DNA of 43,617 nt from Halovenus sp. (GTDB lineage Archaea; Halobacteriota; Halobacteria; Halobacteriales; Haloarculaceae), in contig JAQCNM010000036.1 in the NCBI GenBank assembly GCA_028275025.1, positions 1 to 43,617 of the forward strand, written 5' to 3'. This document shows, piece after piece, positions 17,997 to 29,068 of this stretch (positions within the stretch are counted from its first letter, which is position 1; every line of letters begins with the position of its first letter). The notes under the pieces are model-generated. The model did not search any database, was not told where the DNA came from, and was given only the letters and a program-made list of their open reading frames with translations. Position numbers and translations under genes: made by a program.

Positions 17997-19613
17997 TCAG
18001 AGCCCCCGGCGTTCCTGTGCCAGAATGACCAGCATCGACAGCCCCGATATCAGGAGCAAGAGCAGCGCCGGCACCGCCGCGTACTGGTAGAGGCCGCTGT
18101 TCTGTGCGTCCCAGATCTGGGTGACGATGGTCTCGAACCCGGTGGGGCGGAGGATGATGGTCACCGGGAGCTCTTTCATCGTGGTGAGAAAGACGAGTGC
18201 GGCACCGGCGACGATACCGGAGCGAACCAGCGGGAGTGTCACGCGGCGGAACGCACCCAGTGAGGTCTCACCGAGCACGCGGCCGGCCTCGACGAGGTGT
18301 GGGTCGACCTGGAGCAGAGAGGTACGGGCGGAGCCAACCGCCTGGGGGAGAAACCGGACCACGTACGCGAACACGAGAAGCGGAACCGTCTGGTAGACGG
18401 CGGGCAGGGCGTCGCCGGCCGCGCCGTCGAAACCGGTCCCGAAGTACACGAGCGCGAGCCCCAGCACGACCCCGGGAACGGCAAAGCCGACGTACGTGAG
18501 CCGCTCGAACACCAGCGCCAGCCGGCTCTCGTGGTTGGCGGCGAAGTACGCGACCGGGAGCGCGAGCAGCGCCGCGACAACGGCCGCCGCGGCCGCGATA
18601 CCCACCGAGTTGACCACCTGTATCCACTCGAAGCTCTCGTTCGGTCGGTAGCCCTCGCCGGCGTTGCGCACCCACAGGAGAAGAATCCAACTCGGTACCG
18701 CGAGCGCCGCCGTCGCCACCGTCGCCGGAACCAGCATCGCCGGCCACCGCCACAGCCCGAGGTCGACCCGGTTTTCTGTTCCGGTGGTGCCGCCACTGAC
18801 AGTTCGGTTCGAGCGAACGCGCCACTCCAGGGCGAGCACCACGAGCACCACCGCGAGCAGTTCCAGCGAGAGCAACGCCGCGTAGTCGCTGCCGAACTGC
18901 TGGTTCTCGACGTAGATCTGACGGGTGAACACCGGGAGCCGCATGATCGCAGGGGTCCCGAAGTCGGAGAGGGCATACAGTGCAGCCAGCAACGCACCCG
19001 CGGCGACCGCCGGTCGAACCTGCGGGAGTATCACCCGGCGAACCGTCCGCAGCCGGCCCTGATTGAGCGTCTGTGACGCCTCGACGAGCCGGTCGTCGAA
19101 GGTGAGCAGCGCCGCCCGGGTCGTGAGATAGACGTACGGGTACGTGTAGAGGGTGATAGCGAGTGTCGCCCCCGGGAGGCCGTATATCTCCGGCACCCGC
19201 TCGACACCGAGTGGTGCGAGTAGAGACTCGAACTCGCCGCTCGGGCCAAACGCCGAGACCAGCGCGAACGCGCCGACGTAGCTCGGAATCACCAGCGGAA
19301 GCGCCGCCACGACCGTCCAGAACCGTCGAAACGGGAGGTTCGTCCGGACGGTCAGATACGCAAGCGGCACGCCGAGCAGGATAGAGAAACCGGTGACCAG
19401 CCCCATCAACAGGAGACTGTTGAGCAGGATGTCGAGCGTCTCCGGGCTGGCAGTCAGTTCGAGCGCGCGGGCGAGTTCGACGTCTTGGACCCGGATAAAC
19501 AGCCAGAGGAGCGGAAACACCATCGCCGCCGCGATCGCACCGCTCACGAGCGACAGCCCGACCGGAACTGCCCGCCCGGTTTCCTCCGGTTCGACCACCT
19601 CCTGCTCTGTCAC
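17997..19613 (-). CDS. Ferric iron ABC transporter permease (FbpB/AfuB type), 538 aa
   Basis: A double-domain permease with about 12 membrane helices. Each half carries an EAA-type loop for the ATPase: EASQTLNQG...ILP in the first (about residues 200-220) and EAGRVLGET...TLP in the second (about residues 460-480). This fused architecture is typical of Fe(III) FbpB/SfuB importers. The start chosen is GTG 19613; the open frame upstream covers the operator and shows no coding character. The gene is divergent from the subunit-3 gene, with a shared 67-nt region holding an iron-box-like palindrome. The cognate substrate-binding protein is at 25008-26126; no ATPase gene is in this window. Confidence 0.9.
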   Translation of the reverse strand: MTEQEVVEPEETGRAVPVGLSLVSGAIAAAMVFPLLWLFIRVQDVELARALELTASPETLDILLNSLLLMGLVTGFSILLGVPLAYLTVRTNLPFRRFWTVVAALPLVIPSYVGAFALVSAFGPSGEFESLLAPLGVERVPEIYGLPGATLAITLYTYPYVYLTTRAALLTFDDRLVEASQTLNQGRLRTVRRVILPQVRPAVAAGALLAALYALSDFGTPAIMRLPVFTRQIYVENQQFGSDYAALLSLELLAVVLVVLALEWRVRSNRTVSGGTTGTENRVDLGLWRWPAMLVPATVATAALAVPSWILLLWVRNAGEGYRPNESFEWIQVVNSVGIAAAAAVVAALLALPVAYFAANHESRLALVFERLTYVGFAVPGVVLGLALVYFGTGFDGAAGDALPAVYQTVPLLVFAYVVRFLPQAVGSARTSLLQVDPHLVEAGRVLGETSLGAFRRVTLPLVRSGIVAGAALVFLTTMKELPVTIILRPTGFETIVTQIWDAQNSGLYQYAAVPALLLLLISGLSMLVILAQERRGL

Positions 19614-19658: not shown

Positions 19659-19674
19659 TTTAGGTTTCCCTAAA
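19659..19674. promoter_or_regulatory. Iron-box-like operator 1 (permease / subunit-3 divergent promoter)
   Basis: TTTAGGTTTCCCTAAA, an inverted repeat with TTTAGG/CCTAAA arms. It lies between a GATATAAG TATA element (19649-19656) and the ATG at 19681, which is 28 nt from the TATA centre, so bound protein would block initiation of the plus-strand gene. The same A/T-rich core can serve as TATA for the divergent permease. The arms match DtxR/IdeR-family operators (TTAGG...CCTAA). Confidence 0.8.
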
Positions 19675-19680
19675 ACATCC

Positions 19681-20217
19681 ATGGAGCTGACGCGACGCGA
19701 CGCGGTCGCCGCCCTCGCCGCCATCGCTGGAGGAGGGGCCACAGTGGCCGTCTCCGAGCGTGTCGGGGAGAACGGCGACCCCAGAGAGCCGGAGCTACCC
19801 GACGACGAGCGGGTCCAGGGGGCGCTGGTCGCCGTTGCGGAGGTGGTCTACCCGGGCGAGCTCTCGGGGGTGGAGACGTTCGTCACGGCCTTTGTCGGTT
19901 CGCGGCTGTCGACAGAGCCACACGCGAGCGGGCTCCGGGCGGCCGTGGCGACACTCGACGACCTGGCCGAGCGCTGGCACGGCGACCGGGTGGCCGAACT
20001 CCCGCCGGAGACGCGTGAACGCCTGCTCGGGGAGGTCGGGGCAGACACCGCCGAGTCGGACCCCGACGGGACCGACGCCGAGCGGGTGCGCTACTACGTG
20101 GTCAACGAACTGTTGCTCGCGCTGTACACGTCACCGACAGGGGGCGAACTGGTCGGTATCGAGAACCCGCAGGGACACCCCGGCGGGGTCGAGAGCTACC
20201 AGCGGGGGCCACGATGA
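19681..20217 (+). CDS. Gluconate 2-dehydrogenase subunit 3-like protein, Tat signal, 178 aa
   Basis: The N-terminus has the twin arginines R5-R6 (Leu-Thr-Arg-Arg-Asp) followed by an Ala/Gly-rich hydrophobic core, a Tat-type signal. The remainder resembles the small gamma subunit (GAD subunit 3 family) of membrane-associated FAD dehydrogenases, with a helical region of Glu/Arg-rich repeats and the C-terminal segment YYVVNELLLALYTSPTGG. In the family, this subunit carries the signal that exports the folded flavoprotein partner. It overlaps the GMC gene by four bases (ATGA), supporting a complex. The promoter contains operator 1, and ATG 19681 appears leaderless. Confidence 0.85.
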   Translation: MELTRRDAVAALAAIAGGGATVAVSERVGENGDPREPELPDDERVQGALVAVAEVVYPGELSGVETFVTAFVGSRLSTEPHASGLRAAVATLDDLAERWHGDRVAELPPETRERLLGEVGADTAESDPDGTDAERVRYYVVNELLLALYTSPTGGELVGIENPQGHPGGVESYQRGPR

Positions 20218-21836
20218 GCACCGGGGCAACGAGAGAGACAGACCGCGACCGGTCACCGGTCACCGGTGTGGATGTCTGTGTGGTCGGGGCCGGGCCGGCG
20301 GGGGCGCTCGTCGCAGACCGCCTCGCCGGTGAGCACGAGGTGGTGGTGCTGGACGCCGGCCCGCGGTTCGACCCAGCCGACCGACTGCGCCGACAGGAGC
20401 GGGCGATCCGGCCGGCCTACGACCGGCCGGACGTGTGGGACGGTGGGGGTGACCGGGACGCGTACTCGGCCTCGGGAGAGTGGTTCTACCCTTTGAACCA
20501 CGCCCGCGTAAAGGGTATCGGCGGGTCGACACTCCACTGGCAGGGGATGGTGATGCGCCTCCACGAGGACGACTTCCGCTCGGGAAGCACCCGGGGTGTC
20601 GGCCCGGACTGGCCCATCGGCTACGACGACCTCAGGCCGTACTACGCCGCGGCGGAGACAGAGCTGGGTGTGGCCGGCGCGAACGACAACCCCTTTGGGC
20701 CGCCACGGGACCAGCCCCACCCGATGCCCGCGTTCGAACCCTCCTACAGCGACTCGCTGTTCGCCGAGGCCTGTGACGAACTCGGCATCGCGATGCACTC
20801 GGTGCCGAACGCCCGCGCCTCCGAGTCCTACGAGGGGCGGAGCGCCTGCGTCGGCTACGGGACCTGCCAGCCGGTCTGTCCCTCCGGCGCGAAGTACGAC
20901 GCCACCGTCCACGTCGAACGCGCAGAGGAGCAGGGCGTGACTGTTATCGACCGGGCACAGGTCCAGCGGCTCGAACACGGCTCCGACCGGGTCGAAGCTG
21001 CGGTCTACGCCACCCCCGACGGCGAGCACCGCCAGTCGGCCGACGTGTTCGTACTCGCCTGTGGCGGGGTCGAGACAGCCCGCCTGCTCCTGTTGTCCGC
21101 CTCCGAGCAGTACCCCGACGGGCTGGCAAACACCAGCGGCCGGGTCGGGTCGTACTTCTTCGATCACCTGTTTGCCGGTGTCGGGGGTGTCCTCGACGAG
21201 CCGACCCGACAGAACCACGTCGGCTTTCTCACCAGCGAGTCCCACCAGTTCTACGACGAGGCCGACGCAGACGTCGGGCCGTTCAAACTCGAGTTTTTCA
21301 ACTACGCCGGCCCGTCACCGGTCGAACTGGCACTCACCGGCGACGACTGGGGCGACGACCTGCTGGGTCGGGTCCGTTCTGCCTACGGGAACCACGTCGC
21401 CATCGGCGCTCTCGTTGAGCAACTGCCACGCCCGGACAGCTACGTCGGTCTGGACCCGGAACAGACCGACGAGCACGGCAACCCCGTTCCGGACGTCCAC
21501 TGGACGGTCGGCGACCGGGCGCTCGCGACAATCGAGCGGGCAAACGAGCGCCAGCGGGAGATTCTCGAGACGCTGGGCGCCGAGATAACCTGGACAGTCG
21601 GTCCCGAGGACACCGGTCCCGCGTACCACCATATGGGGACGACGCGGATGGGTACCGACCCCGAGCACAGTGTCGTCGACCCGGCCTGCCGGACCCACGA
21701 CCTGGAGAACTGCTGGATCGCATCGAGCAGTGTGTTCCCGACCGGCGGGGCGACGAACCCCACACTCACCATCGCCGCACTCGCACTCCGGACCGCCGAC
21801 GCCGTCGACGCGGCGCTCACCGGCGACAGTTTTTAG
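20214..21836 (+). CDS. GMC-family FAD oxidoreductase (dehydrogenase large subunit), 540 aa
   Basis: The Rossmann FAD motif VGAGPAG is at residues 24-30. A cysteine-rich segment (CVGYGTCQPVCPSGAKY, about residues 205-225) is typical of the GADH flavoprotein subgroup. The C-terminal GMC active-site region has the HHMGTTRMG motif (about residue 471) and the closing TGGATNPTLTIAALA FAD-binding motif. It has no signal peptide of its own; the preceding subunit 3 could carry it out by Tat hitch-hiking. Substrate is unknown (sugar, sugar acid or alcohol). No cytochrome c subunit gene is adjacent. The stop codon lies inside operator 2. Family assignment is secure; cell location is inferred. Confidence 0.92.
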   Translation: MSTGATRETDRDRSPVTGVDVCVVGAGPAGALVADRLAGEHEVVVLDAGPRFDPADRLRRQERAIRPAYDRPDVWDGGGDRDAYSASGEWFYPLNHARVKGIGGSTLHWQGMVMRLHEDDFRSGSTRGVGPDWPIGYDDLRPYYAAAETELGVAGANDNPFGPPRDQPHPMPAFEPSYSDSLFAEACDELGIAMHSVPNARASESYEGRSACVGYGTCQPVCPSGAKYDATVHVERAEEQGVTVIDRAQVQRLEHGSDRVEAAVYATPDGEHRQSADVFVLACGGVETARLLLLSASEQYPDGLANTSGRVGSYFFDHLFAGVGGVLDEPTRQNHVGFLTSESHQFYDEADADVGPFKLEFFNYAGPSPVELALTGDDWGDDLLGRVRSAYGNHVAIGALVEQLPRPDSYVGLDPEQTDEHGNPVPDVHWTVGDRALATIERANERQREILETLGAEITWTVGPEDTGPAYHHMGTTRMGTDPEHSVVDPACRTHDLENCWIASSSVFPTGGATNPTLTIAALALRTADAVDAALTGDSF

Positions 21837-21848
21837 GCCGACCTAAAA
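21831..21848. promoter_or_regulatory. Iron-box-like operator 2 (GT2 promoter)
   Basis: TTTTAGGCCGACCTAAAA, 16 of 18 bases palindromic. It contains the TAG stop of the GMC gene (21834-21836) and abuts the ATATTAA TATA element (21848-21854), covering the BRE position. The TATA centre is 28 nt from the ATG of the glycosyltransferase at 21879, indicating a leaderless, repressible promoter. Confidence 0.8.
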
Positions 21849-21878
21849 TATTAACTGCGCGAGCAAAGAAACAGGCAC

Positions 21879-22682
21879 ATGGGCCAGAGTCGAGAGGAGC
21901 AACGAGACCAGGCAGAGAGCGGAGCCACCGAGCCGACGAGCGACGGCGGCGGGACAATCGACCCGGCGAGCAGGGAGGACGCCGGCGACGGGCAGGCGTT
22001 TACTTTCGCGGACGTGAGTGTGGTGATGGGGACGTACAACGAGGCGGCGGCCATCGAGACAGTGCTCTCAGACATCGAGCGGGTGACAGACGGGCAGGCG
22101 GAGGTGGTCTGTGTCGACGGGTCGACCGACCGGACTCCGGCGCTCGCCCGGGCACACGGCGCTCGCGTCGTCGAGCAAGAGCCACAGGGGTACGGGGTGG
22201 CGGTGGAGACGGCACTACGCACCCCCGACCGGCCGGTGGTGGTCACGACAGACTGTGACGACACCTACCCGATGGAGCAGCTACCCGAGTTTCTCGACCT
22301 CATAAACGAGGGGTACGACGTGGTCAGCGGCGACCGCCTCTACCACGGGGCGGAGGCGATGCCGGCGTTCAACAGGCTGGGTAACCGGCTGTTCGCGGCG
22401 GCGGCGAGTGCGCTGATGGGACGGCGGGTTCACGACACCACGACCGGGATGCGGGCCTACCGTCGGTCGGTTGTCGAGGCGATCGAATGGACGGAAAACA
22501 CCGGTCTCTCGGCGGAGTTGCTCATGCGGCCGGTGATGCGTGGCTACGACGTGCGCGAACTCCCCATCGCGTACCGCGAACGGGCTGGCGAGTCGAAGCT
22601 CGACCCGCTCACAGGTGGGGTCGCGATCGCGACCTCGGTTCTCCGGGTCGGGCTCGCGGAGCGACTCCGCCGAGCCGGGTAG
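21879..22682 (+). CDS. GT2 glycosyltransferase, dolichyl-phosphate hexose synthase-like, 267 aa
   Basis: A hydrophilic, acidic N-terminal tail of about 45 residues precedes a GT-A fold. It shows VVMGTYNEA, the nucleotide-binding VDGSTDRT, and the acidic metal site TDCDDTYP near residue 125, followed by TTGMRAYRR and the ELPI-Y-ER segment seen in DPM1-like enzymes. Such enzymes load a sugar from a nucleotide donor onto polyprenyl phosphate at the inner membrane face. No C-terminal membrane helix is present, as in short DPMS forms. It is transcribed from its own operator-controlled promoter and converges on a GT-C membrane glycosyltransferase gene, a plausible consumer of its lipid-linked sugar. 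The transferred sugar is not predictable. Confidence 0.88.
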   Translation: MGQSREEQRDQAESGATEPTSDGGGTIDPASREDAGDGQAFTFADVSVVMGTYNEAAAIETVLSDIERVTDGQAEVVCVDGSTDRTPALARAHGARVVEQEPQGYGVAVETALRTPDRPVVVTTDCDDTYPMEQLPEFLDLINEGYDVVSGDRLYHGAEAMPAFNRLGNRLFAAAASALMGRRVHDTTTGMRAYRRSVVEAIEWTENTGLSAELLMRPVMRGYDVRELPIAYRERAGESKLDPLTGGVAIATSVLRVGLAERLRRAG

Positions 22683-22787
22683 GCGACACGCCCGGTCCGG
22701 GTGGTGAGCCCGGCGGTCGGGTACGGCGGTACTCGGTGTCCCACGCGGGTTTTCGACGGCGGGTCCGGGGTGTCGCGACAGCGGGCC

Positions 22788-25001
22788 TCAGCCGCTCGCG
22801 GACCGCGTCTCGTTGGCCGCTGTCAGCGTCGTCTCGAACGAGACCCCGTTGTAGGGACTGGGTCGGTCAGGGAGATACGTGCCCTCGTAGCCGCAGTCGT
22901 CGACCAGCGCACAGACGGTGCGCTCCGGGGGCCAGACCGCCTCGACACCGTCACCGGTCGTGCGGACAGCTGTTGCCTGGCGGTAGGTCAGACTGTCACC
23001 GGTCGGTCCGATCAGACGGACGAGCACGACGAGTTCGTCGACCCGGTCGGTCGGGACGCGCGCCCCGACCGGTGTGTCGTCGACGGCTGCGAGCCGCGCA
23101 CCGCCGCCGTCGAGGCTCCACTCGATATCGATACTGTCACTCGGGTCGGTGACCTGGTGGGTGGTCACGCCGGCGTCGGTCTCGACGCGGACCCGCGCGC
23201 CGGTCACCCGCTCGGGAACACCGACGGTGGTCTCACCGTCGAGGCGGGGGGCCGCCCGGAGGGAGAGCTCCTCCAGCAGTGGGGTCACCTCCCGCTCGGC
23301 CGGGTCTGCCGTCCACTCACCCCGGTAGGTGTAGCGGTAGTGTGTCCGGTCGGGGTAGGTGTCGAACATCTCGAAGTTCCCGGGCGGGCCACGGTCCGTG
23401 ACGTAGACCACGTCGCCGTCGAACCCGGGGTCGTTTCGGAGGTACTGGAACGGGTGGTTGAGCCAGTCGCCGTACGGCGTCGGGAGAAAGACGAGTGCGT
23501 CGTCGAACTCGGCTGTCTCGAACGGCTCGTAGGCGTCCTCGTAGGTGGCGGTGTGTGCGGCGTTGCGTTCGAGCGGGCCGACGACGAGGGTGGCACTCGC
23601 CCCGACCAGCAGACAGGAGAGCACCACCGCGAGTACGACCCGTCCCAGTCCCGCGGGCGGGGTCACAGAGTCGGGCAGTCGCCCGCTCGCGCGACCGGTG
23701 ACGGCACCGCGGGCCCGCCAGAGGGCGAGTGCACCTGCGGCACCGAACACCGCAAGCGGGGCGAGCAGGTCGAAGTGGTAGAACGGGCCGAACTGACCGA
23801 GCAGTCCGTCGGTCGGGTCACCCGGGGTCGCGAGGATGTTGTGATTGCCCCAGAACAGGAGGTTTCCGGCGGGGACAGTCACGAAGAGGCCGCCGAGTAA
23901 CAGGCGGGCAGTCCCGCCACCGGAGCTCACGGGGAGCCCACCCGACAGCCGGCCCGGCAGGAGACGGCGAGCGCGGGTGCTCCCCACGAGGCCGACGGCG
24001 GCGAGCGCGGTGCCGAGCGCACCGGCGGGTCCCCAGCGGGTCAGGAGATACCACAGCACCCAGAGATTGGACCGGACCGCGACCGGCAGCGAGTAGTCGA
24101 CGGAGTAATCGAGGATGCGACGACGGCCGAGCCCCGGCCCGTCTCGGGGAGCAAACGCCTCGTAGGGGAAAGTGAGCGCGGAGCCGGTGACGGCGGCGTT
24201 GTACGTGAGCGTGAGCGCGACGAACACGAGCCCGACAGCGGCGGTGGCCGCCTGTCGGTGGAGAGCGGGCGCGGCGAGCAGGGCGGCCGGGCCCGCCTCT
24301 TCACGAAGCACCGTCCACAGCTCCGACCCGGCGTGAGCGAGAAAGGGGAGTGCAAAGAGCAACGCGGTGTACGGTCGCATGAGAAAGCCGAGACCGATAG
24401 CCCCGCCCGCGAGGAGGGCGCTCAGACGCCGACCGGTGCGGTGGGCGTGCAGGTACGCGACGGCGAACCCGAGGGTACAGAGCGTGGTCGGCGCGTACGG
24501 CAGGAACACGGAGGAGGTAACGAGTGTCATCGGCGCGGTGGCGAAACCGGCGGCCGCGAGCAGCCCCACCCGGCGGTCGAACGCCATCGCGCCGAGTGCG
24601 TACACGAGTGCCACGTTGCCCGTCGTGACGGCCCCGAGTGCTACCCGGGGCTCGCCAACGAGTGCAATCGCAGCCGCGTACAGCCCTGCCGGGAGCGGCT
24701 GGTACTTTGGATACAGTCGGCCCTCCTCGGCGACGAAGAACCACGGCCGGACCGCGTCGGTCAATTCGCCCGGAAACAGCTGGAACTGCCCCTCGAGCAG
24801 CATCGCGGCCTGCTGGAGGTAGACCCCCTCGTCGTGGTTCGAGGAGTGATAGGGAAACAGCTCTGTCGAGACGAGAACAACCGCGACACCGGCCAGAACT
24901 GCGACGAACGCCGCCAGTAGGTGTTCACGCGGGTAGGCCGACGGGTGGAGTCGGCCACGAACGCGGTCGAGCACGGTCTGGAGTCGGTCGAGAGGGGTCA
25001 C
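22788..25001 (-). CDS. GT-C type membrane glycosyltransferase (PMT/GT39-like), 737 aa
   Basis: About residues 25-500 hold ten or more hydrophobic helices. The first extracytoplasmic loop carries HDEGVYLQQA (about residues 55-65), with the Asp-Glu pair characteristic of GT-C enzymes that use polyprenyl-phosphate sugars. The C-terminal about 230 residues are a soluble, beta-rich outward domain. The GTG start at 25001 is six bases after the stop of the iron-binding lipoprotein gene, so it is probably cotranscribed with it and under operator 3. The family transfers a sugar from a lipid carrier to a protein, lipid or glycan outside the membrane; the acceptor is unknown. Confidence 0.8.
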   Translation of the reverse strand: MTPLDRLQTVLDRVRGRLHPSAYPREHLLAAFVAVLAGVAVVLVSTELFPYHSSNHDEGVYLQQAAMLLEGQFQLFPGELTDAVRPWFFVAEEGRLYPKYQPLPAGLYAAAIALVGEPRVALGAVTTGNVALVYALGAMAFDRRVGLLAAAGFATAPMTLVTSSVFLPYAPTTLCTLGFAVAYLHAHRTGRRLSALLAGGAIGLGFLMRPYTALLFALPFLAHAGSELWTVLREEAGPAALLAAPALHRQAATAAVGLVFVALTLTYNAAVTGSALTFPYEAFAPRDGPGLGRRRILDYSVDYSLPVAVRSNLWVLWYLLTRWGPAGALGTALAAVGLVGSTRARRLLPGRLSGGLPVSSGGGTARLLLGGLFVTVPAGNLLFWGNHNILATPGDPTDGLLGQFGPFYHFDLLAPLAVFGAAGALALWRARGAVTGRASGRLPDSVTPPAGLGRVVLAVVLSCLLVGASATLVVGPLERNAAHTATYEDAYEPFETAEFDDALVFLPTPYGDWLNHPFQYLRNDPGFDGDVVYVTDRGPPGNFEMFDTYPDRTHYRYTYRGEWTADPAEREVTPLLEELSLRAAPRLDGETTVGVPERVTGARVRVETDAGVTTHQVTDPSDSIDIEWSLDGGGARLAAVDDTPVGARVPTDRVDELVVLVRLIGPTGDSLTYRQATAVRTTGDGVEAVWPPERTVCALVDDCGYEGTYLPDRPSPYNGVSFETTLTAANETRSASG

Positions 25002-25007
25002 CGCCGG

Positions 25008-26126
25008 TCAGAGCTGTGCACCGGCGTCGCGCATCAGGTCGACCGTCGCCTCGAGGTCCGACAGCGCCGTCAGGTCGATCTCGGGTAGCGCGAGTTCGTC
25101 GACGGTCGGGAGCTCCCCGACCGGTTCGACCGCGGGGATGGCCGGGTACTCGAACGTCTCGACGGCAAAGTACTCCTGAACCTCCGCCGAGAGCAGGTGC
25201 CGGATGAAGTTCTCCGCAAGCGACGGGTCGTCTGCCTGGTCGACGACCGCCGCGCCGGCGACGTTGAACGTGGCACCGGCGTCACCGGCGGTGAACGCAG
25301 TGTCGATAGGGGCGTCCGGGCTCCCGTCGAGCACCCGCTGGATGTAGTAGTGGTTGGTGAACCCGGCGTCGAGCGCACCGTCTGCAACCGCCTGAGCGAC
25401 CGCGAACTCGTCGTTGTAGGGCTCGATACCGTTGTCGACAACGGACTCGACCCACTGCCGGGTTCGGTCGTCACCCTCCAGTATCCGCATCGAAGTAATA
25501 AACGCTTGACACGAACCGTAGGAAGGGGCCCAGCCGAGTTGCCCGTCGAACCCTTCGTAGGCGAGGATATCGTCGGGGAGGTCGGCCTCGTCGTAGGTTT
25601 CGGTGTTGTACGGGACCGTACGGACCCGACCGGAGGTGCCGACCCACTCCTCGGTCCGGAAGCTCTCCGCCGCCGTCGAGCGCACCCCCTCGGACAGAGT
25701 CCGGGTGCGGCCCCGGTCTGCCAGCACACCGAGTGACCCCGCGTTGACCGAGAAGAACACGTCGGCAGGGGTCCCCGACCCCTCAGTGAGAATCGTGTTC
25801 ACGTGTTCCGTCGACCCGGCGTAGCGCATATCTAAGTCAAGGTCGTCGTAGGTCGCATTGAGGTGTTCCTCGACCGCCCCGACGAGAAACTGATTCCGAC
25901 CCGAGTACACCGTCAACTGGCCACTCAGGTCCGGTAGCTCCTGGATCGTGGTACCACCGGGCTCCGGTCGGCCGGCCCGGCCCGAGCCGATGAGCCCTGC
26001 CTCCGGGTCGTCGCCCTCGATAAAGCCGAGACAGCCCGCGAGCCCCGTCACACCGAGCGCCGCCGCACCGGCCAGTAACTCCCGCCTGCGCGGGGCCCGA
26101 CCGGCTGTCGTGTTGGTTCTCTCCAT
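25008..26126 (-). CDS. Ferric iron ABC transporter substrate-binding lipoprotein (FbpA type), 372 aa
   Basis: The N-terminus has Arg-Arg-Arg-Glu-Leu-Leu (Tat-like) and a lipobox LAGC with Cys32, as in haloarchaeal Tat lipoproteins, so the mature protein is anchored outside the membrane. The body starts with LTVYSGRNQFLV, the classic FbpA strand. The GTPADVFFSVNAGSLG and PYNTETYDE segments and FTNHYYIQR (iron-ligand tyrosine region) are typical of class II Fe(III)-binding proteins. A GATATAA TATA box at 26151-26157 and the perfect palindrome at 26129-26144 precede the ATG by 28 and 2-3 nt, so it is leaderless and operator-controlled. The permease partner is encoded at 17997-19613. Confidence 0.93.
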   Translation of the reverse strand: MERTNTTAGRAPRRRELLAGAAALGVTGLAGCLGFIEGDDPEAGLIGSGRAGRPEPGGTTIQELPDLSGQLTVYSGRNQFLVGAVEEHLNATYDDLDLDMRYAGSTEHVNTILTEGSGTPADVFFSVNAGSLGVLADRGRTRTLSEGVRSTAAESFRTEEWVGTSGRVRTVPYNTETYDEADLPDDILAYEGFDGQLGWAPSYGSCQAFITSMRILEGDDRTRQWVESVVDNGIEPYNDEFAVAQAVADGALDAGFTNHYYIQRVLDGSPDAPIDTAFTAGDAGATFNVAGAAVVDQADDPSLAENFIRHLLSAEVQEYFAVETFEYPAIPAVEPVGELPTVDELALPEIDLTALSDLEATVDLMRDAGAQL

Positions 26127-26128
26127 AT

Positions 26129-26144
26129 TTTAGGCTAGCCTAAA
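26129..26144. promoter_or_regulatory. Iron-box-like operator 3 (FbpA promoter), perfect 16-bp palindrome
   Basis: TTTAGGCTAGCCTAAA is a perfect inverted repeat and the best match of the five to a DtxR/IdeR/SirR-type operator. It lies between the TATA element (26151-26157, minus strand) and the start ATG at 26126, and contains the TAG stop of the upstream RGP-like gene (26140-26142). A protein bound here would cover the predicted transcription start. Confidence 0.88.
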
Positions 26145-27333
26145 CTGAAGTTATATCTGTCGGTTCAGCGGTCGGCGTCGGGATACGCCGGAGCGCGGCA
26201 AGGCAGTCCAGCCAGTCGTGCATGTAGGAGCCGACGTGGTGGAGAAAGCCGCCGTTGCGGTATGTCTCGGGGTCTGCCGCGAGCAGCGCGTCGGCCATCG
26301 AACGGTAGACCGCCGCGTAGCTCTCCGCGTCGGCACCGGCGTCGTCGACTAGCCGCCAGATGTGCTCGTTGAGTTCGAGCCCCGCCACCTCGTTGTGGAG
26401 GTCGTCGAACGTCGACCGGGGTGCCTTGTTGTGCTCACAGAGCGGCCGGCCGTTGTAGATCTGTTTTCCGAGCACGTCACAGGCCCGCTTGAGGAACACA
26501 CCGCTCCAGATATCGTCGAACCGGCCGACCGACCACTCGTTGTCGTCCATCGGGAGCTGGTAGAACGCGGGGATTATCTCCCGACGAAAGGCCAAGTTCA
26601 TCGAGCAGACAGTGAGGTAGTTGTCCGGCGCGGCGACAAAGTCCTGTTCGAACTGGTCGGCCTCGGTGCGGGTCTGTGCCTGTCCCTCGAGATCGCCGTC
26701 CATCAGGATGCGGACCGCGTCCAAGTCCGGCACGTTCGTCCACAGCCCCTGCGAGGCGACCACGTCACCGTGGTCGAGACGGGCGGTGTCGGTCGTGACC
26801 GTCTCGTCCATCGCCGAGTAGGGGTAGCCACGCGGGTACAGCCCGTGTTCGTCGGCCGCCTGGTACAGCACGTTCACCCACTGCTCGTCGGAGGCGACCG
26901 ACTCGACGGGCCCCTCGTGGGCGAGATTCGACAGGTGTCGCCCGAAGAAATCCCCCGCCCGCGGGAGCGTGTCGTCGTCGATGAACACACCGTACTCGAA
27001 CGCGGGGTTCGCCCACATGTACAGCAGGCCGAAACTGGTCTCGGCGTGACTGGCCGCCGGCACGACGTGACTGTAGCTCTCGACGCCCCTGTCGGCGTAC
27101 CACGCTTCGCGGCGCGGGCCGTCGAACACCGCACCCTCGACGGCCAGTTCCGACAGCATCGCGCGCATCTGCTCTGTCTCACAGAACTCCTCGGTCACCA
27201 GCAGGACGAACAGCCGCGAGGTGTCGAACCCGTGCTCGCGGGCGTTCTCGACGTAGGCGCGCACGCAGTCGTACTCCCGTATTGTCGGGACGACGACACA
27301 GATATCCGGGCCACACCCGGTCTGATTGCTCAT
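26140..27333 (-). CDS. RGP/UDP-arabinopyranose mutase-like protein (GT75 family), 397 aa
   Basis: The order of motifs follows plant reversibly glycosylated polypeptides: VVPTIRE at the N-terminus, the acidic triad FIDDD (119-121), then YPRGYPYS (Arg168), SQGLWTNVPDLD (about 194-205), CSMNLAF (243-249), GRFDDIWSG (270-278) and HNKAP (301-305). In plant RGPs the Arg of the RGYPFS motif is, from memory, the self-glycosylated residue (Arg158), and a second Arg seven residues on is needed for mutase activity. Here the first is kept but the second position is Met175. ATG 27333 is preferred to GTG 27339 because a TATA-like CTTTTTAGG lies 27 nt upstream. The protein is cytosolic and probably handles nucleotide sugars. 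Confidence 0.82.
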   Translation of the reverse strand: MSNQTGCGPDICVVVPTIREYDCVRAYVENAREHGFDTSRLFVLLVTEEFCETEQMRAMLSELAVEGAVFDGPRREAWYADRGVESYSHVVPAASHAETSFGLLYMWANPAFEYGVFIDDDTLPRAGDFFGRHLSNLAHEGPVESVASDEQWVNVLYQAADEHGLYPRGYPYSAMDETVTTDTARLDHGDVVASQGLWTNVPDLDAVRILMDGDLEGQAQTRTEADQFEQDFVAAPDNYLTVCSMNLAFRREIIPAFYQLPMDDNEWSVGRFDDIWSGVFLKRACDVLGKQIYNGRPLCEHNKAPRSTFDDLHNEVAGLELNEHIWRLVDDAGADAESYAAVYRSMADALLAADPETYRNGGFLHHVGSYMHDWLDCLAALRRIPTPTAEPTDITSV

Positions 27334-27343
27334 GTCCACGTTA

Positions 27344-27361
27344 TTTTAGGCTGGCCTAAAA
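27344..27361. promoter_or_regulatory. Iron-box-like operator 4 (RGP-like gene promoter)
   Basis: TTTTAGGCTGGCCTAAAA, palindromic except for the central two bases. It overlaps the predicted TATA element of the RGP-like gene and begins three bases after the stop of the upstream flippase-like gene (27365). Same arms and spacing as the other four boxes. Confidence 0.85.
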
Positions 27362-27364
27362 AGT

Positions 27365-28426
27365 CTACGGGTCGGTGTCCGCAGGTTGTCCACGGGCACT
27401 CCGGGGCGAGACGTTCAGAGCGAGTGCGGCCACACCGCCGCCGGCGAGCGTGACGAGGTTCTTCAGGGCGTGGTCGAGAACGGCGGCCGCGAGCGCCGTG
27501 GCACCGCCGACAGGCGAGACAGCGACCACGAGCGCGGTGAACGCCGCCTCGTAGAGCCCGATACCACCCTGGGACAACGGGAGTACCTTCGCGAGGTTGC
27601 CGACGGTCACGGCCAGCGCACCGACGGCCACGACTGCAGGTGTCGAGAGGGTGCCGCCGTCGACGAGAGCCGCGAGCACCAGCACCGCGGTCAGCACGTC
27701 GAGAGTCCAGACGGCGAGGCTGTCGGCGGCGACCCGTCCGAGCACACGTGGGTCGGTGGCGACCACCCGCAGGTCGGCACCGAACTGGATTACGGCGTCG
27801 ACGAGCGCCCGGGCACGGGGGTGGTCGACACGCCGTCGGAGGGCCGGGCCGGGGTGCCAGTCCCGTCGGGCGAGCGCCGCCGTCACGGCCGCCCCGAGCA
27901 GTCCGGCAACGGCGACACCGACGGCCCCAGTGAGAAACCGGCTGTCGGTCCCGATAGCACCACCGCCGAGGGTGACCCAGGCGAGCGCCACCGCCCCGAG
28001 TGCCGCGAGCGCGAGCAGGTCGAACAGACGCTCCACGGCGAGTGACGCGGCACCCGTCGCGTAGGGAACATCCCGGCGCGTGTTGAGCAGGTACGCCCGA
28101 GCGCCGTCACCGGCCCGGGCCGGCACAACGAGGTTCGTCGCCTGGCTCACGAACACGGCGGCGGTGAGAAAGCCGACGCGACACCGGTGGCCGGTCGCCC
28201 CGAGCAGTGTGCCGTACCGGCGGCCACGGAGCGGCCAGGAGAGCAGATAACCAACCACGGCGAGTGCGAGCAGTCCTGGGTCGGCCGTCCGGATCACCGC
28301 GAGGACACGCGACAGGTCGAGACGCCCGGCGGCGACCACACCACCTGCGGTCAGCACCAGGGCCGTACCGAGGAGGACCGTCGCTCGCCGGGCGCGGGAC
28401 CGGTCGGACGCGGCGGCACCGAGCAT
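27365..28426 (-). CDS. UPF0104 / lysylphosphatidylglycerol-synthase-type membrane protein, flippase-like, 353 aa
   Basis: About eight hydrophobic helices. Markers include RGDGARAYLL in the first third and the conserved LSQGGIGLYEAAF loop (about residue 290), diagnostic of the LPG_synthase_TM/UPF0104 superfamily (AglD-C-terminal-like, MprF-N-terminal-like), several members of which move lipid-linked precursors across membranes. ATG at 28426 is chosen because an AAAA-rich TATA element within operator 5 is 26 nt upstream; the frame is open further upstream without coding character. It heads the tandem row flippase, RGP-like, FbpA, each with its own operator. A role in flipping a polyprenyl-linked sugar is inferred from family and neighbours. 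Confidence 0.8.
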   Translation of the reverse strand: MLGAAASDRSRARRATVLLGTALVLTAGGVVAAGRLDLSRVLAVIRTADPGLLALAVVGYLLSWPLRGRRYGTLLGATGHRCRVGFLTAAVFVSQATNLVVPARAGDGARAYLLNTRRDVPYATGAASLAVERLFDLLALAALGAVALAWVTLGGGAIGTDSRFLTGAVGVAVAGLLGAAVTAALARRDWHPGPALRRRVDHPRARALVDAVIQFGADLRVVATDPRVLGRVAADSLAVWTLDVLTAVLVLAALVDGGTLSTPAVVAVGALAVTVGNLAKVLPLSQGGIGLYEAAFTALVVAVSPVGGATALAAAVLDHALKNLVTLAGGGVAALALNVSPRSARGQPADTDP

Positions 28427-28448
28427 GTCGTGTCGGACGCTCCCCAGG

Positions 28449-28468
28449 TTTTTAAGCTCACCTAAAAA
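28449..28468. promoter_or_regulatory. Iron-box-like operator 5 (flippase-like gene promoter), weaker match
   Basis: TTTTTAAGCTCACCTAAAAA. The right arm CACCTAAAAA is canonical, while the left arm has TTAAG in place of TTAGG, probably because it doubles as the TATA box for the minus-strand gene starting at 28426, 26 nt away. Confidence 0.65.
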
Positions 28469-28680: not shown

Positions 28681-28755
28681 AGCGGGATGGGATAGCCAGG
28701 AGATTCCGGCGGGCTCATAACCCGCAGACCGGTGGTTCAAATCCACCTCCCGCTA
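28681..28755 (+). tRNA. Initiator tRNA-Met (CAT)
   Basis: A full cloverleaf of 75 nt without encoded CCA. The acceptor stem AGCGGGA pairs with TCCCGCT, discriminator A; the anticodon CAT is at 28716-28718. Archaeal initiator marks are present: the A1:U72 pair and three G:C pairs in the anticodon stem next to the loop (GGG/CCC). A TTAAGAAG TATA-like element centred at about 28654 is 27 nt upstream. The 3' part is duplicated downstream. Confidence 0.95.
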
Positions 28756-28907
28756 CTCTGTGGCGAACACCCTCGTGAGCCACTGATATCCCGCGTGGAT
28801 TTGAACGAGACCGTGAAGCGACCGCAAGGAGTGTAACGGGCGTTGCTCGAATCCACCTCCCGCTACTCTGTGGCGAACACCCTCGTGAGCCACCGATATC
28901 CCGCGTG
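28741..28907. repeat. 57-bp direct repeat covering the tRNA-iMet 3' end, 110 bp apart
   Basis: The segment 28741-28797 (last 15 nt of the tRNA plus 42 nt of flank) recurs at 28851-28907 with a single mismatch (T28784 versus C28894). The 53 nt between copies has no gene. The arrangement resembles the two ends of an integration event at a tRNA 3' end, or a small tandem duplication of the tRNA tail. Only the first copy has a complete tRNA. Confidence 0.9.
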
Positions 28908-29068
28908 AGTCCGAACCGCAGTTGGCCGGTGGAGGCGCAGAGGCGATGGTGGGGTCAGTCGTCGTCGAAAACAGTCGGTAGTATTATATCCGGGGTCGCT
29001 CAATCGGAATGTACGCGAGGTTCGAGCACACGGGCGACGGTGGGTTCGAGCCGGGGTAGGTAGAACCG

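Follow-up and report, generated by a model that had tools for sequence, protein, structure and literature searches.

The haloarchaeal iron regulon of the ferR/DtxR type (Idr, SirR, TroR) was reportedly described by Leyn and Rodionov in 2015. Here we consider five palindromes of the form TTTAGG-N4-CCTAAA (boxes) in a 43,617-nt stretch of DNA from Halovenus sp. (contig JAQCNM010000036.1 of assembly GCA_028275025.1; hereafter the window), which precede genes for a predicted ferric-iron importer, a sugar dehydrogenase and a putative surface glycosylation module. The IdeR/DtxR operators of Actinobacteria have the form TTAGGTTAGSCTAACCTAA, and the operator passages of PMC8464063 give a 14-bp IdeR form, TTAGGNNNNCCTAA, bound as one dimer. 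The haloarchaeal box resembles the operators treated in those passages of PMC8464063 in its CCTAA arms, its 4-nt spacer and its location in promoters of iron-uptake genes; precisely, the arms and spacing of the window boxes equal those of the 14-bp form. Unlike the IdeR operators, the haloarchaeal box has an outer T/A on each side, stands at archaeal TATA promoters and occurs singly or as a pair of palindromes, mostly at a distance of 26 or 34-37 bp. With the haloarchaeal regulon it shares the Peripla_BP_2/FecCD uptake genes, which carry the box in relatives of the genome studied here.

As to the genes, FbpABC ferric importers are made of the same families as SBP and PERM of the window and the corresponding ATPase; unlike FbpABC, the conserved archaeal cluster adds glycosylation genes and GMC, and in Halovenus the ATPase is detached and mostly boxed. 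MtdL and UDP-arabinopyranose mutase, which swap pyranose and furanose rings, resemble RGP of the window in fold, in sequence and in an Arg/Ser/Arg set of residues. The AglD/dolichyl-phosphate (Dol-P)-hexose surface glycosylation of haloarchaea is comparable in having a Dol-P hexose transferase (NF041391) and a UPF0104 protein. According to the part of PMC5898192 that deals with it, AglD is a fusion of a glycosyltransferase domain and a UPF0104 domain, the latter being the family of LPGS; unlike AglD, the window has separate genes, together with the mutase-like RGP, under iron boxes. In the open-access literature searched, no article paired 'reversibly glycosylated polypeptide' with 'haloarchaea', a silence that is no proof of novelty, and a wide link between iron boxes and glycosylation was not found described there; searching with the cluster gene names led to two papers, both unrelated.

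Results

Boxes in the window

We called a site if it had at most one mismatch to TTTAGG-N4-CCTAAA, unless stated otherwise. Five boxes were found in the window, four exact and one with a single mismatch (Table 1), and 100 dinucleotide-preserving shuffles of the window contained 0 sites (largest count 0). When three mismatches were allowed there were 7 sites against 1.89 expected, the weaker additional ones being at 25858 and 34280. Taking these results with those given below, we consider it highly probable that the palindromes are operators of a metal-dependent repressor of the DtxR family, i.e. haloarchaeal iron boxes, and those of the window are very likely an instance of the known haloarchaeal iron regulon.

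All five palindromes had been listed in an initial annotation of the window, with three starts (21831, 27344 and 28449) displaced by 1-2 bases and with box 3 rightly called perfect. Its remark that there were none elsewhere holds for the window, whereas the genome has two further sites. It also placed the boxes at TATA or start regions, and indeed they overlap TATA-like or start positions or are at most a few tens of bases away (TATA judged by eye). On the coding strand, G2DH3 and SBP have their box between a TATA-like element and the start codon; in GT2, RGP and LPGS it covers a TATA-like stretch or stands just ahead of it, and PERM shares box 1 divergently. Both arrangements were also seen in the AT profiles of 405 unique boxed stretches, in which the consensus between the arms is Y-N-N-R (TTTAGG-YNNR-CCTAAA), and either placement could block TBP/TFB or the polymerase.

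The genes were read by us as six transcription units, namely PERM, G2DH3-GMC, GT2, LPGS, RGP and SBP-PMT. As previously noticed, two boxes hold the stop codon of the upstream gene, that of GMC (TAG, 21834-21836) in box 2 and that of RGP (26140-26142) in box 3. We rejected this overlap as a mechanism, since for RGP it occurs in 1 of the 100 loci measured, the window itself (frame estimated, redundant locus set), and hence reflects local compaction and no rule. Gaps of 13-22 nt had been given for the tandem genes; that from RGP to SBP is 13 nt, and that from LPGS to RGP is slightly larger, 25 or 31 nt according to which start codon is taken.

Table 1. Boxes and cluster genes of the window; gene families were assigned with Pfam and NCBIfam
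Feature	Positions	Strand	Sequence	Description
Box 1	19659..19674		TTTAGGTTTCCCTAAA	Exact; divergent promoter PERM (-)/G2DH3 (+); TATA-like GATATAAG just 5' on the + side
Box 2	21832..21847		TTTAGGCCGACCTAAA	Exact; precedes GT2; contains GMC stop codon; followed by ATATTAA
Box 3	26129..26144		TTTAGGCTAGCCTAAA	Perfect palindrome; 2 nt ahead of SBP start; contains RGP stop codon
Box 4	27345..27360		TTTAGGCTGGCCTAAA	Exact; precedes RGP
Box 5	28451..28466		TTTAAGCTCACCTAAA	One mismatch; precedes LPGS; overlaps LPGS TATA-like stretch
PERM	17997..19613	-		Two-domain ABC permease (BPD_transp_1 twice), FbpB-like; GTG start at 19613 assigned by us
G2DH3	19681..20217	+		Gluconate 2-dehydrogenase subunit 3 family; twin-arginine-like N-terminus (by eye)
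GMC	20214..21836	+		FAD sugar dehydrogenase, FAD-GDH/fructose dehydrogenase large-subunit type
GT2	21879..22682	+		Dolichyl-phosphate hexose transferase; NF041391, 399 bits, cut-off 375
PMT	22788..25001	-		GT-C-like membrane glycosyltransferase; DUF7846; PMT_2 just below cut-off; second gene behind SBP
SBP	25008..26126	-		FbpA-like ferric-iron-binding lipoprotein (predicted)
RGP	26140..27333	-		Nucleotide-sugar mutase-like, PF03214; ATG at 27333, GTG at 27339 also possible
LPGS	27365..28426	-		Flippase-like membrane protein; PF03706/UPF0104, TIGR00374

Conservation of the boxed cluster

An RGP protein probe had a match in 100 of the 146 genomes of the order (own genome included). The locus set was composed of the window, 80 named loci (the best 80 of 253) and 40 regions chosen by us; after the removal of three duplicates it consisted of 118 loci, including two genomes with two RGP copies each. 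Among the best 80 loci, the closest named relatives of RGP were those of a Halovenus metagenome-assembled genome (84%), archaeon J07HX64 (82%) and Halovenus carboxidivorans (79%). We considered a gene as boxed if the centre of a box was between 30 nt inside and 260 nt before its start, with starts estimated from tblastn.

With the proviso that the loci share ancestry and the counts are not independent events, boxes were present at RGP in 113/118 loci, LPGS in 56/59, SBP in 97/113, G2DH3 in 67/79, GT2 in 62/89 and PERM in 47/95, and at the importer ATPase (ATP) in 1/34, PMT in 0/113 and GMC in 0/71. Since PMT and GMC, like most ATP and many PERM genes, occupy later positions within a unit, the boxes track transcription units. 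The box placement supports separate control of each unit, as first proposed, with repression as the presumed mode. An RGP box and an SBP gene within 4 kb occurred together in 112 of the 118 loci and were both missing in 4, with the box alone in 1 and SBP alone in 1 (L188); the four loci with neither are the second RGP copies L200 and L201, plus L160 and L163.

Reversed and permuted controls were run on a redundant set of 121 loci. The reversed pattern was found once in 1.57 Mb and 0 times in 0.77 Mb, where the box was found 321 and 142 times, respectively. For 59 palindromes with permuted arms the median was 0 and the highest count 45, against 463 boxes, and 35 of the 45 matches of this highest one (GTAGTT-N4-AACTAC) were within one GMC coding stretch. 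Chance or a repeat as the origin of the boxes was rejected on the basis of the shuffles, the reversed pattern and the permuted arms.

A Salarchaeum plasmid has a colinear annotated cluster with RGP, SBP, iron permease, ATPase, GT39, G2DH3, GMC and dolichyl-phosphate hexose transferase, in which RGP is annotated as 'alpha-1 4-glucan-protein synthase' and the permease as 'iron ABC transporter permease'. The genome of Haloferax volcanii has a match to the RGP family; its cluster copy was not located, the plasmid search having led to other genera (nine records).

Sites in the rest of the genome

The window is contig C172 of a genome assembly of 2.03 Mb in 190 contigs, 78.6% complete. In this assembly there were 7 sites, and the reversed-pattern control gave 1. 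The two sites besides those of the window are C42:1452 and C2:28708; since the reversed pattern matches once, a single chance site at this threshold is unsurprising and both needed testing. The initial annotation had named many sites at unrelated genes as the outcome that would speak against its regulon, and this outcome did not occur: of the 7 sites just given, six belong to genes of the cluster or of a transporter. Its count of eight genes is correct for those under the window boxes and too narrow as a regulon, given a boxed ATPase and a boxed DUF7331 gene in the genome and a wider regulon in relatives.

The C42 site is 64 nt ahead of an ATPase gene of the ATP-binding cassette (ABC) type (C42:1452-2707, L006), which is the component that the iron transporter of the window lacks and is 57-74% identical to the in-cluster ATPase of eight named loci. 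We inspected 30 of the 33 ATPase matches in the 40 genomes compared (17 of them labelled as the same genus as the window), placement being judged by contig and coordinates. In 22 genomes the ATPase is remote from RGP, is on a different contig or has no RGP match in the same genome, and 18 of these 22 are boxed; the four unboxed ones are G001, G011 (which has little upstream sequence), G015 and G028. Where the ATPase follows in the cluster, 0/7 are boxed, and the one divergent from RGP (G036) has two boxes. Within the genus of the window, all 12 genomes with a boxed ATPase (own included) have one variant of the box there, TTTTGG-N4-CCTAAA on the coding strand. The boxes in 18/22 genomes and the genus-common variant arm make the C42 site very likely real; in Halovenus, the transporter ATPase stands apart from the cluster and has mostly kept the box.

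The C2 site is 8 nt ahead of a 53-aa DUF7331 gene (G000:C2:28708-28890; L005 1501-1686; L316). DUF7331 genes are boxed in 24 of 28 loci from 27 genomes (own included), with two such boxes 26 bp apart in nine loci; in two or three of the five promoters viewed by eye, the double boxes flank a TATA-like stretch. The protein, with a conserved C-terminal motif around VFTEExNxDGWIATD (by eye), is a candidate iron-starvation microprotein. A comparison of two boxed small open reading frames, L005 and L268, gave no significant match (E 0.13).

Boxes in related genomes

Exact boxes were present in 37 of the 40 genomes (own included), and the reversed control was 0 in 31. For nine relatives in which every site was listed there were 73 boxes; setting aside the cluster ones, with which a G022 box 3.2 kb upstream of RGP was grouped, and counting tandem boxes as one, 44 non-cluster sites were left. 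To pick the downstream genes we combined a heuristic based on acidic composition with inspection by eye; 42 of the 44 sites were scanned.

Uptake genes follow 17 of the 44 sites, 16 of them Peripla_BP_2 and one FecCD (siderophore/B12-type, which Pfam cannot separate). One Aminotran_3 and one Acetyltransf_8 gene plausibly act in siderophore synthesis. There were also four FAD/pyridine-nucleotide oxidoreductases, two DUF5059 genes, one DtxR-family gene, one ABC ATPase, two GT2 genes and one GMC gene; as L276 shares its contig with RGP at a distance of about 5 kb, it is really a cluster site. In G018 a GT2-family gene is boxed about 12 kb from the cluster (L269).

We also observed that the DUF5059 proteins (L242 and L277; ~660-670 aa, with a lipoprotein-like start) are encoded behind tandem iron boxes, in two genera. 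The DtxR-family gene, L273, is a short one, and its box (G003:C21:108085) suggests a regulatory cascade or autoregulation.

Predicted functions of the cluster genes

The best solved relatives of SBP are ferric-binding proteins (7w3w, E 9.9e-53, with the Tyr pair aligned), and N258, H259, Y260 and Y261 are invariant in 16/16 aligned sequences (window included). In FbpA-type proteins the tyrosine pair binds ferric iron; going by the family, the substrate of SBP would be ferric iron. G2DH3 and GMC are the small and large subunits of a sugar dehydrogenase, GMC being closest to FAD-glucose and fructose dehydrogenases; a cysteine-rich stretch of GMC aligns with that of 6a2u, where it has an Fe-S role.

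The structural model of RGP (mean pLDDT 78) matches MtdL (7xpr, E 1.6e-19) and rice UAM2 (8cid, 1.3e-11) as the closest two, with 22% identity over the model alignment. R159, S228 and R257 of MtdL correspond to R170, S246 and R273 of RGP (hand-counted mapping), which are invariant in 16/16 aligned sequences. In the titles of the PDB entries, MtdL is a metal-dependent mutase acting through an arginine and crystallised with GDP-sugars, and mutant names mark S228 and R257 as catalytic; the arginine of its PRG motif we take to be catalytic as well. RGP is hence predicted, from model and alignment, to be a nucleotide-sugar mutase. The PMT model (pLDDT 77) is GT-C-like, with AftA, an arabinofuranosyltransferase, first (E 1.9e-6), ALG9 and ArnT close, and low TM-scores for all three (0.36-0.50). 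The simplest reading of these genes would be a Dol-P-furanose route to a surface glycan.

Just outside the cluster, a 75-nt stretch with the 3' end of a tRNA-Met (tRNA at 28681-28756) recurs with 89% identity 110 bp further downstream (28732-28916), perhaps the scar of an integration event.

Candidate regulator

The own genome has two DtxR-family genes, L008, full-length with DtxR N, C and FeoA domains, and L009, which is short; PF02742 has a match in 38 of the 40 genomes (own included). The best solved relatives of L008 are 5zr4, 8pvt and SloR, with IdeR lower down. As to iron, in the sections of PMC11349517 that concern these genes, the Haloferax UPF0104 protein HVO_1859, a member of the LPGS family, is up 11.6-fold on iron depletion, and the fhu genes of Haloferax are preceded by a 'ferR regulon signal'.

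Discussion

Our interpretation is as follows. With sufficient Fe(II), the repressor would occupy every box, covering the TATA element or next to it, and each unit would be off; when iron is scarce, it would leave and all six units would be expressed. The units would form one conserved iron-starvation cluster, with an FbpA/B-type ferric importer, a sugar dehydrogenase acting at the surface and, for glycosylation, a module of the dolichyl-phosphate type that consists of the mutase, the Dol-P loading enzyme, the flippase-like protein and the GT-C transferase; the importer ATPase is encoded elsewhere under its own box. The DtxR/IdeR iron-box proposal of the initial annotation is well supported on the sequence side by the arms and spacing, the FbpA-like SBP, the uptake genes in relatives and the DtxR genes; recognition by a DtxR-type protein follows from knowledge of the family, and we infer repression and iron as the effector.

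Several observations weigh against this interpretation. The reversed control is nonzero in 9 of the 40 genomes, and it outnumbers the boxes in G006 (4 vs 3), G016 (6 vs 1) and G024 (1 vs 0), so that single counts from poorer assemblies are untrustworthy. Eight of the 44 non-cluster sites are at families with no evident iron role (GSDH, RIO1, FKBP, HVO_A0261/FilR1, HhH-GPD, DUF7552/TctA, histidine kinase and DUF7260), and six are uninformative, four with no family and two unscanned. GT2 is unboxed in 27/89 loci and PERM in 48/95, the latter often since it is behind SBP. The best NCBIfam model for L008 is the manganese-type MntR one, at 203, below its cut-off of 350. L160 and L163 keep RGP-PMT-GT2 with neither an iron transporter nor a box, in genomes with 4 and 10 exact boxes elsewhere, respectively, L163 having a two-mismatch site at RGP; they seem to be natural cases of a sugar module free of iron control. 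Finally, the glycan role is deduced from homology and is accordingly put forward as tentative.

A reading of the boxes as normal core-promoter sequence or as a repeat, kept in evolution with no specific repressor, would fit their overlapping or abutting TATA-like stretches. It is nevertheless extremely improbable, because the flanks and the N4 vary freely in the 405 unique boxes (selected by their arms, so that arm identity is no evidence), the box is restricted to particular genes, and the reversed pattern is nearly absent from the same sequences. We also hold it quite improbable that a manganese- or mixed Mn/Fe-sensing protein of the DtxR/MntR type reads the boxes and that the cluster answers manganese or redox state. 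The MntR model as the top, below-cut-off match of L008 is in its favour, as are the seeming lack in L008 of the IdeR Met and Cys ligands (by eye) and a putative manganese transporter about 3 kb from the Salarchaeum cluster; on the other side are the likeness of SBP to ferric-binding proteins with its conserved Tyr pair, the same box ahead of the 16 Peripla_BP_2 genes and the FecCD permease, and the ferR signal at the Haloferax fhu genes in the sections of PMC11349517 cited above.

A further possibility is that the regulation is really directed at the iron transporter genes and that the glycosylation genes are boxed for a more general envelope role of their own under stress, outside iron uptake. 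The persistence of RGP-PMT-GT2 in L160 and L163 would agree with it. Against it, RGP, GT2 and LPGS each have their own boxes, a GT2-family gene is boxed away from the cluster in G018, and RGP is the most consistently boxed gene and has its box together with a neighbouring SBP in nearly all loci; on balance we find this rather unlikely. Going back to a glycosylation module serving in iron starvation, the glycan genes may make a surface sugar, perhaps furanose-containing, that helps under iron limitation, which we regard as possible, at somewhat less than an even chance. A more specific version is glycan-based iron capture run by the DtxR box: RGP, GT2, LPGS and PMT would make a furanose-bearing surface glycan by way of dolichyl phosphate, GMC/G2DH3 would oxidise sugar outside the cell, and a coat of sugar acid or glycan would bind ferric iron and pass it to the FbpA-like receptor. 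In this full form the proposal is doubtful, and we offer it as speculation.

This type of box being known, the regulatory claim alone is no news. The content of the cluster suggests a conserved, unexplained tie of iron starvation to surface glycosylation: in many genera of haloarchaea the ferric importer is accompanied by a mutase-like protein, a Dol-P loading enzyme and a GT-C transferase, with a separate iron box at most units. Working hypotheses are thereby available for DUF7846, for the DUF7331 microprotein and for the proteins annotated as 'alpha-1 4-glucan-protein synthase', which are predicted to be nucleotide-sugar mutases, and the motif allows the regulon to be read from haloarchaeal genomes. 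The prediction that follows is that haloarchaeal surface glycans would change under iron limitation.

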